Shown here piece by piece: positions 37,351 through 58,827 of a stretch of 64,000 nucleotides of DNA (the stretch's first letter is position 1; every line of letters begins with the position of its first letter). Location: the NCBI RefSeq assembly GCF_963664135.1, contig NZ_OY760905.1, positions 3,002,736-3,066,735 of the forward strand, in the 5' to 3' direction. Position numbers and translations under genes: made by a program. This DNA is from an uncultured Acetobacterium sp. (GTDB lineage Bacteria; Bacillota; Clostridia; Eubacteriales; Eubacteriaceae). The notes beneath the pieces were generated by a model that saw only the letters and a list, made by a program, of their open reading frames with translations, did not search any database and was not told the DNA's origin.

Positions 37351-37932
37351 CAATTCAAAGAGATTTACACATGACATCAAGGAAGATGGATGTGGAAATT
37401 GAAGAATTGAAAAAAATAAAGAACAACGAATAAATTGAAACATATATTATCAATGGCGATAACAGGAATTCCTGTTATCGCCATTTTCTATTTTCACCGG
37501 GTTGTGGAGAATCCTCACAAGTTTACTTTTGAGTGTCAACATACCGGAAGGAGGAAATAAAGACCGATATGTTTCGGATGATTTGCTTAATCAAATTCAA
37601 TTATCAACGGCGATAACAGTTTAACTGCGATCGCTGTTTTTTTTAGAACTAATTAGGGTAAGTAAATTATATTGTTTGGATAGTTAAGATTGAGGATTTA
37701 CTCAATAGTTTGACAAATTGGGATAAGAGCAATTCGAAATAATATATTTGTTTTAATGATAATTGTTTATCAGCTTGTATGGATTTATATCTGCACAAAT
37801 TACGATGTACAATGATAAACAATTGTTTTTGAAAATAGCTTTTAGAACTTTTGGGCACTGTTGTATAAATACAGCGATCTTCTATATAAAAGATCAATAA
37901 AGATCAAAATTTTAAGAAAAGAGGAAGTTAAG
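37351..37932 (+). promoter_or_regulatory. ANTAR-type antitermination leader of amtB1 with two terminators
   Basis: Unit 1: hairpin catc-[aaggaa]-gatg (37375-37388), then ttatc-[aatggc]-gataa (37447-37462). The 3' strand of the latter is the start of a perfect 34-base terminator palindrome (37452-37485). Unit 2: hairpin ccga-[tatgtt]-tcgg (37564-37577), then ttatc-[aacggc]-gataa (37601-37616), overlapping a terminator (37610-37634) with eight T after it. Three of four loops have A at 1 and G at 4, as in ANTAR target RNAs. A further 12-bp inverted repeat lies at 37761-37772/37813-37824, followed by T. Confidence 0.75.
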
Positions 37933-39186
37933 ATGATTAATTCTGGTGATGTTGCATTTCTACTAATTGGTTCAATGCTTGTATTCTTCATGACTCCTGG
38001 CTTGGGATTGTTCTATGGTGGGATGGTTCGCAGAAAAAATGTAATTAATACATTGATGTCTGTAGTATTTTGTTGTGGTTTGGCAACCGTGATGTGGTTT
38101 GCTTTTGGTTATTCACTCTCATTTGGTGAAGATGTTGGCGGATTTGGAATTATTGGGAATTTAAGCAATGCATTCTTTAGTGGCGTCAGTGCAACTGATG
38201 CTGGACCTTATGCAGCAACAATTCCCGGTGCATTGTTTGCGATATTCCAATTGATGTTCTGTATTATTACACCAGCCATTCTTGTTGGCGCTTTATCTGG
38301 CAGAATGAAATTCTCAGCAATGTTTATTTTTGTAGCTGTTTGGTTGTTACTGGTTTACTATCCATTGGCTCATATGGTATGGGGCTTAGGCGGTTTTATC
38401 GCTGGATTGGGAGCAGTCGACTTTGCCGGCGGAAATGTTATTCATATCAGTTCTGGGGTTTCAGGTCTGGTTGCCTGTATTATCCTTGGCAAAAGAAAAG
38501 GCTTTGGCGTTCAGGCGTATCATCCACATAACATTCCGATGTTTTTCACTGGTGGTTTGATTTTATGGGTTGGCTGGTTTGCATTTAACGGTGCATCGGC
38601 TTTAGCAGCCAATGGTCTGGCGGTTCAAGCCATGGGAAATACCATGATTGCTTCAGCAGCAGCGATGTTAAGCTGGATGCTGATGGAAACAATTCTTTAT
38701 AAAAAAGTGACTGTTATGGGTGCCATGACAGGGGCAATTATTGGTTTAGTCGCAATTACACCGGGTTCAGGTTATGTGCCATTTGGCGCTGCTATGTTTA
38801 TCGGAGCAATGGTTAGTCCAATCTGTTTATTCTTTATGACAAAAGTAAAACAAAAATTCGGATATGATGATTCATTGGATGCTTTTGGATGTCATGGTAT
38901 CGGCGGAATTTGGGGCGGTATTGCAACTGGTTTGTTTGCCCAATCAGCCATTAACCCGGTTGCTCAATGGGATGGTTTATTCTTTGGACAAACAGAATTA
39001 TTTGTCGCTCAATTACAGGCAGTTGGTATTTCAGTAATCTATTCTGCAGTCGTTACTGCTGTGATTATGTTAGTACTCAAAAAAGTTATGCAAATCCGTG
39101 TTTCTCCCGAAGCTGAAGCACTTGGTCTGGATATCAGCGAACATAGTGAACAAGGTTACCCTGCATTCTCAGGAATTGATCAATAG
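37933..39186 (+). CDS. amtB: Ammonium transporter 1
   Basis: 417 residues and about eleven membrane segments. Amt family blocks include FMTPGLGLFYGGMVRRKN, YYPLAHMVWG with the first pore region, and GCHGIGGIWGG with the conserved pore His. The ATG at 37933 has site agaggaag. It imports ammonium and, with the cotranscribed GlnK, reports external nitrogen. About 80 percent similar by eye to the second copy at 40087-41340, so the amtB-glnK pair was duplicated. Expression is controlled by the long antitermination leader. Confidence 0.96.
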   Translation: MINSGDVAFLLIGSMLVFFMTPGLGLFYGGMVRRKNVINTLMSVVFCCGLATVMWFAFGYSLSFGEDVGGFGIIGNLSNAFFSGVSATDAGPYAATIPGALFAIFQLMFCIITPAILVGALSGRMKFSAMFIFVAVWLLLVYYPLAHMVWGLGGFIAGLGAVDFAGGNVIHISSGVSGLVACIILGKRKGFGVQAYHPHNIPMFFTGGLILWVGWFAFNGASALAANGLAVQAMGNTMIASAAAMLSWMLMETILYKKVTVMGAMTGAIIGLVAITPGSGYVPFGAAMFIGAMVSPICLFFMTKVKQKFGYDDSLDAFGCHGIGGIWGGIATGLFAQSAINPVAQWDGLFFGQTELFVAQLQAVGISVIYSAVVTAVIMLVLKKVMQIRVSPEAEALGLDISEHSEQGYPAFSGIDQ

Positions 39187-39256: not shown

Positions 39257-39595
39257 ATGAAACTAATTGAAGCAATCATTCGTCCGGAAAAGTTGGAACC
39301 TTTAAAGGATGCATTTTTACAGGCTAAAGTAAATGGGATGAATATCCGTCAGGTTCTTGGCTGTGGGAATCAGTTTGGATGGGTCGCACATAATCGTGGG
39401 ACATCGGTAATGATGAACATGATCCCCAAAATTGAAATTAAAATTGTCGTTGCCGACGAAAAAGTCGAGGAAACCGTAAAACTGATTATCGATACCGTTC
39501 GAACCGGAGAAATAGGTGATGGAAAAATTTTCATCAAACCGGTCGAAGATTGTATCCGAATCAGAACCAGTGAACGAGGCGATGTTGCACTTTAA
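39257..39595 (+). CDS. glnK: P-II signal protein GlnK 1
   Basis: 112 residues. P-II fold with PEKLEPLKDAF near the start and GEIGDGKIFI (B loop). The T-loop reads QVLGCGNQFGWVAHNRGTS and has no Tyr at the position uridylylated in proteobacterial P-II proteins, so control is expected through direct ATP/ADP/2-oxoglutarate binding. Encoded 70 bases after amtB1, its probable target. Site aaagga. Confidence 0.94.
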   Translation: MKLIEAIIRPEKLEPLKDAFLQAKVNGMNIRQVLGCGNQFGWVAHNRGTSVMMNMIPKIEIKIVVADEKVEETVKLIIDTVRTGEIGDGKIFIKPVEDCIRIRTSERGDVAL

Positions 39596-39748: not shown

Positions 39749-40086
39749 TGCTGAATCAATTGAGAGACAGCAACTATTGAAATTTAATATAAAAACCAAC
39801 CTTAATATAAAAGCGAATGTTCAGCCGATTGTCAATGAAGAGAGTCGGCATAAAAATGGACCGGATGTAGTATTAAGAGTGTCAAAGGCGATAGCATTTT
39901 TTTGTTGTCGCCTTTTTTTGCGTTTTTTGCGTTAAGTTAATAAGCAAAGCTTCGTTTTCAACGATTTATACATAAATAAAATGAAAAGAAAGGAGTCAAA
40001 CTAAAATTGTATAAAATTAGAGTCTTGACAAAAATATAAAATTTCAATAAAAAATAGTCAGATTATCAAAAAATTTAGGGGGAAAA
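39749..40086 (+). promoter_or_regulatory. ANTAR-type antitermination leader of amtB2
   Basis: P1: gccgattgtc-[aatgaa]-gagagtcggc (39824-39849), a 10-bp stem with one G-G mismatch. P2: tgtc-[aaaggc]-gata (39880-39893). Both loops have A at 1 and G at 4. The terminator aaaggcgatagca/tgttgtcgccttt (39884-39915) with seven T uses the P2 loop and 3' strand as its own 5' arm, so P2 and terminator exclude each other. A 73-codon reading frame over this region is not considered a gene. Confidence 0.82.
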
Positions 40087-41340
40087 ATGATTAATTCTGG
40101 AGATGTGGCATTTATACTTATTTGTACGATGCTGGTGTTTTTTATGACACCAGGTTTGGCGTTCTTCTATGCCGGCATGGTGCGTCGAAAAAATGTGCTT
40201 AATACGATTATGTCAGTTGTGTTTTGTTGTGGGCTGGCAACAGTAATGTGGTATACCGTCGGGTATTCACTGTCTTTTGGTCCGGATGCCGGTGGTTTTG
40301 GGGTTATTGGTGATTTAAGTAATGTGTTCTTCCATGGTATCAGTGCGACGGAGGCCGGTCCCTACGCCACCAATATACCAGGACAGCTCTTTGCTGTTTT
40401 TCAGCTGGTATTTTGTATGGTAACACCGGCCATTGTTGTCGGATCGTTATCAGGACGAATGAAATTCCCGGCGTTGTTTCTTTTTGTCACCTTCTGGTTA
40501 TTGCTCGTGTACTATCCAATGGCCCATATGGTCTGGGGACAAGGTGGCTTAATCGCAAATCTGGGCGCCGTGGATTTTGCCGGTGGTTATGTGATTGAAA
40601 TCAGTTCAGGGATTTCAGGACTGGTTGCCTGTATCATTCTAGGGTCACGAAAAGGTTATGGGATCAAATCGTATCATCCCCATAACTTACCGTTATTTGT
40701 GATCGGCGGTGCTATTTTATGGGTTGGTTGGTTTGCTTTTAATGGCGGCTCAGCTTTGGCGGCAAATGGTTTGGCAGTACATGCAGTGGTTACCACTATG
40801 CTTGCTTCAGCAGCGGCAATGTTAAGCTGGATGCTGATTGAAATGGTGCTTTATAAAAAAGTCACCGTGATGGGTGCCATAACTGGAGCCATTGTCGGAC
40901 TGGTCTCGATTACTCCCGGGGCAGGTTATGTTCCGACCGAAGCATCATTGCTGATCGGCGGGGTGGTTAGTCCGATTTGTTTCTTCTTCTTAACAAAAGT
41001 GAAGGTGAAATTTGGATACGATGATACCTTGGATGCCTTCGGCTGTCATGGCATTAGTGGGGTTTGGGGCGTTATTGCCACTGGTCTATTTGCTCAAACC
41101 GCCATCAATCCGGTAGCTAAATGGAATGGCTTGTTCTTTGGCGATACCCAATTATTTGTTGCTCAGATTACCGCACTCTTTATTGCCGTAATCTATTCGG
41201 CAGTGATGACCGCAGTGATTATGCTGGTGCTTAAGAAGATCATGCGAATTCGGGTATCGCCAGAAGCAGAAGCGCTTGGTTTGGATATCAGTGAACACAG
41301 TGAAGAAGGCTATGCAGCATTTTCAGGAATTGACCAATAG
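40087..41340 (+). CDS. amtB: Ammonium transporter 2
   Basis: 417 residues, same length as copy 1 and aligned throughout, with FMTPGLAFFYAGMVRRKN, YYPMAHMVWG and GCHGISGVWG. Differences are spread evenly and many are conservative, so both copies look functional. Site agggggaa. It is cotranscribed with the second glnK and has its own antitermination leader with one rather than two units, so the two transporters may respond differently to nitrogen supply. Confidence 0.96.
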   Translation: MINSGDVAFILICTMLVFFMTPGLAFFYAGMVRRKNVLNTIMSVVFCCGLATVMWYTVGYSLSFGPDAGGFGVIGDLSNVFFHGISATEAGPYATNIPGQLFAVFQLVFCMVTPAIVVGSLSGRMKFPALFLFVTFWLLLVYYPMAHMVWGQGGLIANLGAVDFAGGYVIEISSGISGLVACIILGSRKGYGIKSYHPHNLPLFVIGGAILWVGWFAFNGGSALAANGLAVHAVVTTMLASAAAMLSWMLIEMVLYKKVTVMGAITGAIVGLVSITPGAGYVPTEASLLIGGVVSPICFFFLTKVKVKFGYDDTLDAFGCHGISGVWGVIATGLFAQTAINPVAKWNGLFFGDTQLFVAQITALFIAVIYSAVMTAVIMLVLKKIMRIRVSPEAEALGLDISEHSEEGYAAFSGIDQ

Positions 41341-41414
41341 GGTTTTATCGTCTAAAATACTATCTGAAGGTCAACTCGAAATGATTTTTATTTAAGATGA
41401 GAAAGGAAAATGCT

Positions 41415-41753
41415 ATGAAACAAATCGAAGCAATTATCCGTCCGGAAAAATTGGAACCGTTGAAGGATGCGTTTTTACAAGCAAAGGTTAATGGGATGAA
41501 TATTCGCCAGGTTCTGGGCTGCGGAAACCAGTTTGGTTGGGTGGCACATAATCGAGGAACATCGGTGATGATGAATATGATTCCCAAAATAGAAATTAAG
41601 ATTGTCGTTGCCGACGACAAGGTCGACGAAATCGTCGAACTGATTATGAACACCGTCAGAACTGGTGAAATTGGCGATGGCAAAATTTTCATCAAGTCAG
41701 TTGAAGAATGTATTCGTATCAGAACTGGCGAAAGAGGCGAAGTCGCTCTTTAA
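41415..41753 (+). CDS. glnK: P-II signal protein GlnK 2
   Basis: 112 residues from the ATG at 41415 (site gaaagga); an in-frame ATG at 41397 is not supported. Nearly identical to GlnK 1, including the T-loop GCGNQFGWVAHNRGTS without Tyr. The differences cluster in ADDKVDEIVELIMN and KSVEEC. The pair can probably form mixed trimers. Likely regulates the AmtB encoded just upstream. Confidence 0.94.
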   Translation: MKQIEAIIRPEKLEPLKDAFLQAKVNGMNIRQVLGCGNQFGWVAHNRGTSVMMNMIPKIEIKIVVADDKVDEIVELIMNTVRTGEIGDGKIFIKSVEECIRIRTGERGEVAL

Positions 41754-54363: not shown

Positions 54364-55200
<837 letters not shown>

Positions 55201-55239
55201 TTAATTTTTTTATAGAATTCAATGAGTACTCACTCAAAA

Positions 55240-55475
55240 TAAAAAGAGATCTAGGACAACTGCACAAATTGCAGCTGGCTAAGACCTCTTCGTCTAAGGA
55301 TAGTGAGTTTTGATTAAAAAAAGAAGTCTTAATTGGCCACGTCATTGCGGCAAACTAAGACTTCTTTGTCTAAGGGGGGATTACTTATAAAAAAAGAGGT
55401 CTCAATCCGTTACGTATTTGTAACTGGTTGAGACCACATTGTCTGAGGGGTAATCCGTATTGCATTGTTTTCTAT
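55240..55475 (-). promoter_or_regulatory. Triple ANTAR-type antitermination array in the nifH leader
   Basis: Three tandem units on the minus strand. Small hairpins: agac-[aatgtg]-gtct (55431-55444), agac-[aaagaa]-gtct (55358-55371), agac-[gaagag]-gtct (55282-55295). Each 3' strand is also the 5' arm of a terminator: 55398-55435 and 55324-55363 are followed by seven T; the third, about 55246-55289, is weaker with five T. Terminator loops contain further hairpins: gttac-[aaatac]-gtaac (55409-55424) and gccgc-[aatgac]-gtggc (55336-55351). The first two small loops and aatgac fit A1/G4; gaagag has G first. Confidence 0.8.
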
Positions 55476-55481
55476 GGGCTT

Positions 55482-55510
55482 ATTATCCATGGTATTACCT
55501 AGAAAGTCAA
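55482..55510 (-). promoter_or_regulatory. Sigma-A promoter of the nif operon
   Basis: TTGACT, 17 bases, GATAAT on the minus strand (one mismatch in each hexamer), ending about 7 bases before the predicted leader start. The stretch 55511-55759 shows nothing definite. Confidence 0.65.
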
Positions 55511-55759
55511 GAGGCTTTGATTGTAAACCCTTTTCAACATTGAATGGATTTAAGATTTTCACCATGGATTTACATGTATTTTCATATCAGCATCACGATT
55601 GTACTTTAGTCGGCTGATGTGTTTTTCGACTGATAGACAGGCTGAAATCATTTTCACGGTTTCAGAATGTTTTTGACAAAATCCTACATTTGAATCCTTA
55701 AAGAAACCTTAATTATTTCTTAAGCGGTACGATTTGAAGATCATCAAAATCAGTCTCAA

Positions 55760-56710
55760 TCAGCCGCAACTGGAACAGGAAGCACAATCGCCACAGGATT
55801 TTTTCATGGGGTCATGGACCAGAATCGAGCGGACAGTTGCGGTTTTCAAATCCACTGTCACGATGTCATCTTGAATAATTTCCATTTTTTCGTCGCTGAA
55901 CACGATGGTCATGGGTTCGGGAACCAGTATTTCTGGATCCAGGGTACCGGGTTTCATCTGTGGCTGAACGAATTTCTTGCCCTCGGGAGAGTTGATCATC
56001 AGTCCGCTGTTGCCGGTTATCAGGGATCTTAAGACACCAGTTGGGGAGTAGATGACGGAGTTTTCGTCGCAATTGATGCCGTGGGCATTGCTGTCATAGG
56101 CGATCACAATCCCGATTGGTGTCACAATTGGTTCGGGCAGTGCCGGTTCAAAACTTTTCAGGTTACCATTTTCATAAAGTGAGAATCCGTAGTGAACCTT
56201 GACCTGTCCATCGGGACTGGAAATTTCGATGGATTCCTGAGGCCACATGGTCAGACTCTTGAGGGCGCCACTTTCATAAAAGCAGAGACTCACGATCTTG
56301 GCTGAGAAAGAGCCGATCGCCAGATCAAACTCAATCGGTTTGGCTAGGGTATATTCGTCATTCTCGGTCCAATAACCATTGATCCGTCCATTTAAGGGAA
56401 ACAATCGGTGGATCCGGCCATTTTCATAAAAACTGAGGCGCTCAGCCGATAAGCTTCCCAGGGAAGTGATGACTTCGGTCGCTTCTTCCAGATCAATGCT
56501 TTTGAGTTGGCCGCTTTTGAAAAACTCCAGCGACAAACCTTCCCGGTTTCTTAAATTTGATGGCCCATAATTAGGTACTAGAATGCCAATTGGGGTATTG
56601 ATGGTATTTTTTTCCTCAACCGCACAGCCTTTTAAAACTCCATTTTGGTATGTTTCAGAAAAGGTAACACCAGTGATGGGACCGTATTTTTCTGTTTGTA
56701 ATGTCGTCAT
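55760..56710 (-). CDS. MORN-like repeat protein with a Cys-rich tail, nif-associated
   Basis: 316 residues that I do not recognise as a named family. About seven repeats of the form F/Y-Y-E-N-G-x-L-K-S-L, then x-P-x-G-I, resemble MORN-type beta repeats (SFYENGRIHRL, CFYESGALKSL, SLYENGNLKSF). It ends SCGDCASCSSCG, five Cys in twelve residues, which could bind a metal or iron-sulfur cluster. No signal peptide. It follows the AnfO-like gene by 12 bases and ends about 250 bases upstream of the nif promoter. A role in nitrogenase metal supply is speculation from context. Confidence 0.65.
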   Translation of the reverse strand: MTTLQTEKYGPITGVTFSETYQNGVLKGCAVEEKNTINTPIGILVPNYGPSNLRNREGLSLEFFKSGQLKSIDLEEATEVITSLGSLSAERLSFYENGRIHRLFPLNGRINGYWTENDEYTLAKPIEFDLAIGSFSAKIVSLCFYESGALKSLTMWPQESIEISSPDGQVKVHYGFSLYENGNLKSFEPALPEPIVTPIGIVIAYDSNAHGINCDENSVIYSPTGVLRSLITGNSGLMINSPEGKKFVQPQMKPGTLDPEILVPEPMTIVFSDEKMEIIQDDIVTVDLKTATVRSILVHDPMKKSCGDCASCSSCG

Positions 56711-56722
56711 GACAATCTCCTA

Positions 56723-57391
56723 TTATTCACACACAAGATGAGTAATCACCACATGCTTGGTGGAATCATTTTTATTTTCTTCGAATTTATTTTCAATGAT
56801 TTTGTCTACAATGCGGTAGCTGAGTTGCATTTCGGCTAATTTGTGATCAAACCATGGGGGAATATGGTCACAAACTACCTCCAGTGAGTAGAACGGGGTC
56901 TCTTCTAAAAAGGGCAATAGTACCATTTTTGAACTCATTTCCGGGTGCTTTTTCTGCACCTGGGTTAAATCGATGGAATAATATCCTGGCACATCAGTTT
57001 CGAAAGGCGTATTAGCCAAGCGTAATTCATCTTCGTTGATGTTCTCATCTTGACTGATTAAATCAGCCTGAATGGCGTCCAGTAGATCCAGATCAAACGC
57101 TTCGGATTCGCAGATGATAAAGCCAGAACGATCAAAAACTTGATAAGGGATGCCGGTTATGGATTTGGTAATAATAATCTTGCAGGAGTTAAATACTCCC
57201 AGCATCTGTTGGATATTTTCACGGATGGAAGCTAGTCCACCGGAAAGATCTGGTGCAAAAGGAACCATGTCGGACTTGCGCCAGCAGGATTCTTCTTTGG
57301 TATAGAAAACAAAATTTGTCATCTCATCAAACCGGGCAATCTGGTTGCTGTCATCACAAAAAACAGCCATTATGTTTAGATTTTCTTTCAT
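56723..57391 (-). CDS. AnfO-like nitrogenase accessory protein
   Basis: 222 residues matching the AnfO family, first described with Fe-only nitrogenase. Conserved blocks: FNSCKIIITKSITGIPYQVF, PGYYSIDLTQVQ, SSKMVLLPFLEETPFYSLEV and CDHIPPWFD. AnfO is needed for Fe-only nitrogenase function in Azotobacter, but its biochemical role is unknown. Here it sits beside a Mo-type nif operon, and no anfHDGK genes are in the window. Site tgaggtg; an extended -10 promoter lies at 57449-57457. Confidence 0.85.
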   Translation of the reverse strand: MKENLNIMAVFCDDSNQIARFDEMTNFVFYTKEESCWRKSDMVPFAPDLSGGLASIRENIQQMLGVFNSCKIIITKSITGIPYQVFDRSGFIICESEAFDLDLLDAIQADLISQDENINEDELRLANTPFETDVPGYYSIDLTQVQKKHPEMSSKMVLLPFLEETPFYSLEVVCDHIPPWFDHKLAEMQLSYRIVDKIIENKFEENKNDSTKHVVITHLVCE

Positions 57392-57906: not shown

Positions 57907-58827
57907 ATGAAACAAACAAACCGAACAAATCGAACCAAAAAAGCGGCATTATTATCAATTGGCTCAAATACGGTGTTGATTATTTTTAAAGTCATTGCAG
58001 GATTATTGAGTGGGTCTGTCAGTATTATTTCAGAAGCGATCCATTCATCAATGGATCTGGTGGCATCCTGTGTTGCCTTTATGGCCGTTCGGACATCATC
58101 AAAACCGGCAGATCGGGATCATCCCTATGGTCATGGGAAAATCGAAAATATTTCTGGCATCGTCGAAGGCGTCTTGATCTTCATTGCCGCCGGGTTGATA
58201 ATTTTTGAAGCCGTGAAGAAAATAATGGAGCCGGTGGAAATCGAACAGGCGGGGATCGCCATCGCGGTGATGGCCGGAGCGGCGATCGTTAATTTTTTCA
58301 TTTCGAAATATCTGTACAAGGTTGCTAAAGAAGAAGATTCTATGGCTTTGGAAGCCGATGCACTGCATCTAAAAACGGATGTTTACACGTCATTAGGCGT
58401 CGGGGTTGGTATCTTGCTCATTCAATTAACCGGCTTAATGGTGTTGGATTCAATTGTGGCAATTCTCGTGGCGCTGCTGATTGTTAAGGAAGCTTGGGGA
58501 CTTTTCCGAAACGCTCTCCAATATCTGATGGATAAACGACTTTCTGATGAGGAAGAACAGGAAATAATGACAGTGATTGAAAAAGTCAAGTCTGACTGTT
58601 CTGCTCAAGTGGTTGATTATCATAAGTTGAAAACAAGAAAGTCCGGTAATATTAGACACATCGATTTTCATATTACAGTGGACCCAAGCCTGACAGTGAT
58701 GGAAGCCCATGATATTGTCGGGTGCTTTAAAAAGGAATTGTGTGAAGTGTTAAAAAATACCCGGGTAAACGTTCATATTGATCCCTATAATTATCAGGAA
58801 GAAGATGAAAATCTGGGTATTCTCTAA
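57907..58827 (+). CDS. Cation diffusion facilitator (divalent metal efflux)
   Basis: 306 residues with six membrane segments in the first about 210 residues. CDF metal-site motifs: SEAIHSSMDLVASC (segment 2), DRDHPYGHGKIE, and ALEADALHLKTDVYTSLGV (segment 5, H-x-x-x-D). The cytoplasmic C-terminal domain has HIDFHITVDPSLTVMEAH. Site taaggagg. It exports divalent metal ions by proton exchange. Because the leader contains a NiCo-type riboswitch, cobalt and nickel are the likely physiological substrates, apt for an organism using corrinoids and nickel enzymes. Confidence 0.92.
   Translation: MKQTNRTNRTKKAALLSIGSNTVLIIFKVIAGLLSGSVSIISEAIHSSMDLVASCVAFMAVRTSSKPADRDHPYGHGKIENISGIVEGVLIFIAAGLIIFEAVKKIMEPVEIEQAGIAIAVMAGAAIVNFFISKYLYKVAKEEDSMALEADALHLKTDVYTSLGVGVGILLIQLTGLMVLDSIVAILVALLIVKEAWGLFRNALQYLMDKRLSDEEEQEIMTVIEKVKSDCSAQVVDYHKLKTRKSGNIRHIDFHITVDPSLTVMEAHDIVGCFKKELCEVLKNTRVNVHIDPYNYQEEDENLGIL

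Follow-up and report, generated by a model that had tools for sequence, protein, structure and literature searches.

The closest described counterparts of the leader reported here are the ethanolamine attenuators of Enterococcus faecalis, controlled by EutV/EutW. As these are presented in PMC3369931 and PMC8934654, a hexaloop with G at position 4 (G4) and mostly A at position 1 (A1) stands at the terminator foot, antiterminator and terminator are mutually exclusive, and the regulator is a receiver-ANTAR protein, all as proposed below for units ahead of nifH in Acetobacterium. The difference is that the Enterococcus sites have two hexaloops joined by a short linker, both needed, as published ANTAR sites do according to the same papers, whereas the units ahead of nif, anf, glnA and amtB have one. 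Walshe et al. (PMC8934654) describe the position 4 base as stacking on the protein and position 1 as making no specific contact. In their account a single hexaloop is the minimum for binding, and antitermination is expected to require a recruitment hairpin; they foresee single sites where polymerase timing is irrelevant and urge more bioinformatics on such sites.

The leader sites of NasR (nasF) and AmiR (amiE), as described, also resemble our units in having an A1/G4 hexaloop 5′ of a terminator. To our knowledge they number one unit per leader. They differ from ours in having been reinterpreted as dual hexaloops (PMC3369931). AmiR has a pseudo-receiver (PMC8934654), and NitR appears to have one likewise.

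Earlier work (PMC3369931) already reports ANTAR attenuators ahead of nitrogenase genes, as well as transcription units with several of them: Pelobacter carbinolicus has nitrogenase-linked ANTAR RNAs, placed like ours ahead of nitrogen genes, and Desulfotomaculum acetoxidans has 13 attenuators in six transcription units, in places several per unit. They differ in that the model that found them demanded two hexaloops (PMC3369931). The ANTAR regulator NitR of Clostridium saccharobutylicum, as reviewed in PMC6316151, acts by antitermination on GS/GOGAT genes under nitrogen limitation, and so resembles the system proposed here in type of regulator, in its nitrogen-assimilation targets and in its signal. 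Literature titles and the openings of abstracts yielded no stacked (three to four per leader) or single-hexaloop ANTAR attenuators before nif, the original description of NitR (Stutz 2007) lying outside that scope.

The nifH leader and its conservation

We analyzed a 64-kb window (the whole stretch of DNA under study, 64,000 nucleotides) in which nifH (54364–55185, minus strand; genus orthologs 89–98% identical, leader shared) is the first gene after the leader, followed by two glnB-like genes and then more nif-like genes, named by eye. The initial annotation had placed three minus-strand agac-N6-gtct hairpins ahead of nifH, each overlapping an intrinsic terminator, and read them as ANTAR-type antiterminator/terminator units in series. 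The hairpins were confirmed, and the reading of the series as ANTAR units is supported as far as sequence can carry it. Read directly, unit 1 is agac-AATGTG-gtct (55431–55444), unit 2 agac-AAAGAA-gtct (55358–55371) and unit 3 agac-GAAGAG-gtct (55282–55295), all predicted antiterminators with G4 loops, A1 in units 1 and 2 and G1 in unit 3. Each shows one G4 hexaloop on a short stem, which is the minimal motif of PMC8934654.

The corresponding terminators, each with a T-run, lie on the same strand at 55389–55437, 55316–55367 and 55241–55291, with fold energies of −19.7, −26.7 and −24.2 kcal/mol. The loop end and gtct strand of each hairpin are also the first arm of its terminator, and folds with and without the hairpin enforced showed the two to be mutually exclusive in all three units: enforcement reduced the energies to −10.3, −13.0 and −14.8 kcal/mol, a loss of about 40 to 50%. 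Alone, the hairpins have −2.2, −2.3 and −3.2 kcal/mol. With hairpins this weak and terminators this strong, termination is the expected default, and the hairpin must be held by something. Over its full 242 nt the leader folds better than 200 of 200 dinucleotide shuffles (z = −8.78). A simple terminator scan of 55150–55650 called no terminator, probably because the stems of the nif terminators are interrupted.

The units sit between nifH and a sigma-70-like promoter, TTGACT-17-GATAAT (55482–55510, minus strand; 10/12 matches). The pattern TTGACN-N16 to 18-GATAAT recurs in 15 of the 16 orthologous leaders described below, being absent from that of A. fimetarium (L015); promoter-like matches are frequent by chance (1.5 per shuffled region), and the call rests on this conservation. 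Two further stretches on this strand are seemingly conserved in many genus leaders: what are presumably the initial 30 nt of the RNA, ATAGAAAACAATG..ATACGGAT (55445–55475), and TGAAAAGGGTTTACA 5′ of the promoter (55522–55536), neither with a clear hairpin. The conserved stretch ahead of unit 1 contains no A1/G4 partner hairpin and has no copy ahead of units 2 and 3.

Elsewhere in the window, a NiCo riboswitch (Rfam RF02683; 57687–57774, plus strand; 38 bits, just above cut-off) precedes a cation-efflux-like gene (57907–58827, by eye). Similar-looking gene pairs adjoin the nif operon (55760–57391, minus strand) and the alternative nitrogenase (anf) operon (L035, 1285–2850, minus strand), and possibly encode nitrogenase accessory proteins, judged by eye.

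A NifH search over 19 Acetobacterium genomes yielded 16 orthologous genes with a leader (L003–L017 and L032). All 16 have the agac-N6-gtct pattern, 15 with three hairpins and A. fimetarium with four; 44 of these hairpins also pass the scanner described below, including its terminator condition. Successive hairpins are mostly 65–83 nt apart, and more widely spaced in L015, L016 and L017. Units 2 and 3 of A. fimetarium are separated by 244 nt, versus about 75 elsewhere, and the gap holds palindromic, insertion-like sequence. Opening the search to NGAC-N6-GTCN with any loop, in the 600 nt 5′ of the 16 nifH genes, gave 50 stems, of which 49 have G4 (the exception lies at −563 in A. fimetarium); position 1 is A in 42 and G in eight. 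Among 32 aligned nif units, drawn from 41 that passed an earlier scan, position 4 is G in all and position 1 is A in 24 and G in eight. The G1 of the third loop, singled out in the initial annotation, is thus present as stated but is no defect, since eight of the 32 aligned units share it and eut P2 loops (GACGNA) have it too. The stem is near-invariant across the nif set, so that no compensatory change is visible within it.

Our unit scanner required a hexaloop with A or G at position 1 and G at position 4, a 4-bp stem, and an overlapping terminator with a fold of −12 kcal/mol or lower. It was applied to nifH loci, of which 80 were collected and two dropped for having fewer than 60 bases upstream, some others having fewer than 500. 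All nine named Acetobacterium leaders contained units (27 in total; none on the reverse strand; mean 0.1 over 20 shuffle rounds). The 69 other leaders gave 21 units in 14 leaders (shuffles 1.75, reverse strand 2); carriers outside the genus include Clostridium vincentii and a Pelosinus MAG with two units each and Sporomusa and Pectinatus with one each. Nine distant NifH-like loci of the genus (43–78% identity) had no unit within 600 nt upstream. Over both strands of the whole window this loose scanner returned 18 matches: the three nif units, four in amtB leaders and 11 others.

Single and paired hexaloops

The initial annotation applied to the nif units the rule that ANTAR proteins bind paired hairpins, and this application failed. 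We looked for an A1/G4 hexaloop hairpin within 40 nt upstream of each unit, a search that other types of partner would escape. The units tested were chosen by the stem typical of each gene (aagc-[AG]ACG in most eut cases), and close relatives contributed many of them. An A1/G4 partner precedes none of 44 nif units (shuffles 1.7), none of three anf units (0.1), none of ten glnA units (1.1) and one of 29 amtB units (2.0), or 1/86 when pooled, where shuffles expect 4.9. Yet the eut operon of this genome clearly shows the classical dual pair: ttgc-AACGAG-gcaa is followed by aagc-GACGTA-gctt. A second dual pair lies 165 nt further on, so that two EutV-type attenuators stand in tandem in the gap between a eutW-like and a eutA-like gene (L145, 11600–11785, minus strand; names by eye), and a third lies upstream in the eut cluster before an RnfC-like ORF (L145, 18538, minus strand). 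The A1/G4 partner was found for 12 of 13 eut units (shuffles 1.0), the thirteenth having a G1/G4 partner; these units come from nine loci, several of them from close relatives.

The nif, anf, glnA and amtB units do not show the two hairpins with a short linker by which ANTAR-target attenuators are recognized in PMC3369931, and with the upstream partner missing we do not class the nif units as classical dual-motif members. From their sequences they look like single-hexaloop ANTAR attenuators stacked three deep. A single-hexaloop antiterminator is unexpected because EutV, as studied in PMC3369931 and PMC8934654, needs both hairpins; nor do the units, single hexaloops on terminators, resemble the timing-independent single sites foreseen in the latter. 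In one Peptococcaceae locus (L109) both nifH units have an upstream partner, so which of the two forms is used may depend on lineage.

Other nitrogen genes and the candidate regulator

Both amtB leaders of the window carry nif-type units, absent from the initial annotation. On the plus strand, the ammonium transporter gene amtB1 (37933–39186; PF00909; followed by a glnK-like gene, 39257–39595, by eye) is preceded by tatc-AATGGC-gata (37448–37489) and tatc-AACGGC-gata (37602–37643), and amtB2, likewise an ammonium transporter gene (40087–41340; followed by a glnK-like gene, 41397–41753, by eye), by tgtc-AAAGGC-gata (39880–39919), each overlapping a terminator at these positions. The glnA-nitR operon is preceded by gaac-AAAGGC-gttc (locus L033, with glnA at 1091–2419 and the ANTAR ORF at 480–1061), and the anf operon, its genes named by eye, by taac-AAAGAG-gtta. 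The regulon of a NitR-type protein would thus include its own operon: the glnA-linked ANTAR gene itself has a unit upstream.

Across the genus, 21 of 29 amtB loci have a tatc/gata-type unit, eight of the 21 having two, and a third is indicated by pattern in loci L171 and L176; the other eight fail the full scan, two of these being cut short upstream. Among 17 glnA leaders, a count without two loci truncated on the upstream side and without two other synthetases, ten pass the full scan and 15 show the pattern, which is absent from L059 and L060, where nitR is present. All three anf leaders fetched have a unit. A glutamate synthase locus (L149) had none. In loci L152–L157 a tatc-AAAGGN-gata hexaloop lies 3′ of the amtB2 terminator with no evident terminator of its own, a possible terminator-free ANTAR site.

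Each gene has its own self-complementary stem in the genus: agac/gtct for nif, taac/gtta for anf, gaac/gttc for glnA and tatc/gata for amtB. In Sporomusa, the Pelosinus MAG and Pectinatus the nifH leaders have aagc/gctt or gagc/gctt, and ggac/gtcc. Both stem sides change between genes and the loop rule stays constant; as the hairpins were picked for pairing, this supports the structure but is no independent test of covariation. A covariance model built from the 32 nif units and run over this genome recovered all three nif units, with E from 8e-12 to 4e-10, together with their complementary strand and two matches with E of 6 to 9. The model is too narrow to pick up the units of anf, glnA and amtB. 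Those were obtained from leader scans, and the regulon list is accordingly no full genome survey.

We found two ANTAR genes in this genome (PF03861, above cut-off). One, in the apparent eut operon beside its kinase gene, encodes a EutV relative (best PDB match 6wsh). The other lies directly 3′ of glnA, and its product, a NitR relative, aligns with the EutV structure 6wsh at E = 1.2e-5. In Clostridium saccharobutylicum, too, nitR presumably adjoins glnA. The NitR-type protein has Asn at the place of the phosphoacceptor Asp of the EutV relative, keeps the presumed Met172 in the 6wsh alignment and has His for Tyr164, features common to 17 aligned sequences, this genome's included, and two more. 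The His was considered as a mark of single-hexaloop recognition and rejected, as Sporomusa, the Pelosinus MAG and Pectinatus have Tyr and partnerless units.

The nif units are most likely read by this regulator encoded directly 3′ of glnA. A. paludosum, A. fimetarium and A. wieringae each have a single ANTAR match, placed at the glnA locus by inferred genome-to-locus correspondence, and have kept the nif units. Among 50 genomes with a nifH locus, 15 have both units and an ANTAR match, two units only, 16 an ANTAR match only and 17 neither (one-sided Fisher p = 0.006, or 0.025 minus the four Acetobacterium). The units-only cases are a 2.0-Mb MAG (L085) with two units and no ANTAR match, and one spurious-looking match; conversely, 16 of 31 ANTAR-bearing genomes have no scanner unit. 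Taken as a reading of sequence, the ANTAR interpretation of the nif units is well supported. With no phosphoacceptor, a NitR-type protein might be switched by contact with glutamine synthetase or a PII protein, which is a guess.

A proposed three-step gate and its alternatives

We consider it probable that transcription into nifH is attenuated in three steps within the leader, where a NitR-type ANTAR protein acts at single hexaloops, a proposal built from the sequence, the competition between folds, conservation, the gene-specific stems, the regulator gene and the absent classical partner. Polymerase starting at a site that we place near 55475 would by default run into three successive intrinsic terminators. 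Under nitrogen shortage, an ANTAR protein, most likely of the NitR type, would bind the weak hexaloop hairpin at each terminator foot, and the bound hairpin would hold the first terminator arm (loop end and gtct strand), leaving the terminator incomplete and letting polymerase read through. Each unit would offer one hexaloop, with no A1/G4 partner upstream, and transcription of nifH would need all three gates passed, with NitR at each. As three steps must all succeed, leakage in the off state would be roughly the product of three. In this genome the alternative nitrogenase operon, glnA-nitR and both amtB-glnK operons, each with one or two units, would be under the control of the same protein.

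The nif units might instead be classical dual-hexaloop units whose partner is a hairpin inside the same terminator or, in the chain proposed in the initial annotation, inside the previous one. Unit 2 of this genome indeed has ccgc-AATGAC-gtgg (A1/G4) within its terminator, six related genomes have ttac-ACTGTT-gtga (A1/G4) within that of unit 3, and the apical loop of terminator 1 is 6 nt in 10 of 13 leaders. However, an A1/G4 hexaloop lies between hairpin and T-run in nine of the 57 units examined, where shuffles give 2.9 (with 4-bp stems, eight against 1.1). This excess is overstated, since the terminator stem, on which loops of this kind arise, is lost on shuffling, and six of the nine are unit 3 of one group of related genomes. 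The other 48 units have none, so that the chain is no conserved feature. Of the aligned unit 1 inner loops only that of L007 (TATGAT) has G4, the aaatac of this genome being without it, and the unit 2 inner loop varies from 4 to 9 nt. The usual spacing of successive hairpins also argues against a chain, given that antitermination by EutV was lost in the experiments of PMC8934654 once 20 nt had been added to the linker, as do the one-unit leaders of anf, glnA and several amtB genes. The chain thus finds no support in these comparisons, and a dual reading in either form is improbable.

The terminators might also be a plain tandem that shields nif against transcription from upstream, with the small hairpins incidental to it. 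This would make sense in that the upstream ORF (55760–56710) runs in the same direction as nif, but the units lie 3′ of a promoter conserved in 15 of 16 leaders, where an insulator would block nif itself. Nor would an insulator account for loop G4 kept in 49 of 50 stems or for the weak hairpin reappearing, on different stems, ahead of anf, glnA and amtB, and we regard it as quite improbable. If an ANTAR protein is the reader, EutV is a very improbable one: a relative is encoded in this genome, and Enterococcus EutV binds G4 hexaloops in the work of PMC8934654, but the units persist in the three named relatives whose sole ANTAR match is at glnA, and the EutV-type sites here differ in stem and closing pair (aagc/gctt), in loop (GACGNA) and in having a partner hairpin. 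The least probable reading gives the terminators to another RNA-binding antiterminator or a riboswitch. It is left room by the attribution to ANTAR being one of sequence, but the hexaloop rule fits ANTAR targets, the operon of the putative regulator bears a unit, and Rfam models gave no match in the nifH leader at gathering scores, the four matches at E up to 5 falling far below them.

Returning to the three-step attenuator read by a NitR-type protein, we suggest more tentatively that such units form a second class of ANTAR antiterminator, in which one hexaloop works unaided by a recruitment hairpin. Its readers would be NitR-type proteins without the phosphoacceptor Asp, and three to four such gates would be stacked before nif; the protein may pass from unit to unit, the preceding unit replacing the recruitment hairpin. 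The current ANTAR model, in which two hexaloops are required, the first to recruit the protein in time (as set out in PMC8934654), is one on which the nif units bear. Dual eut units and single units at nitrogen genes stand side by side in this genome, the single form genus-wide, and are natural controls for in vitro tests. Searches for two hairpins could overlook a single-hexaloop class. For these acetogens, the arrangement suggests that an RNA gate of three steps, placed after a sigma-70-like promoter, keeps nitrogen fixation off.
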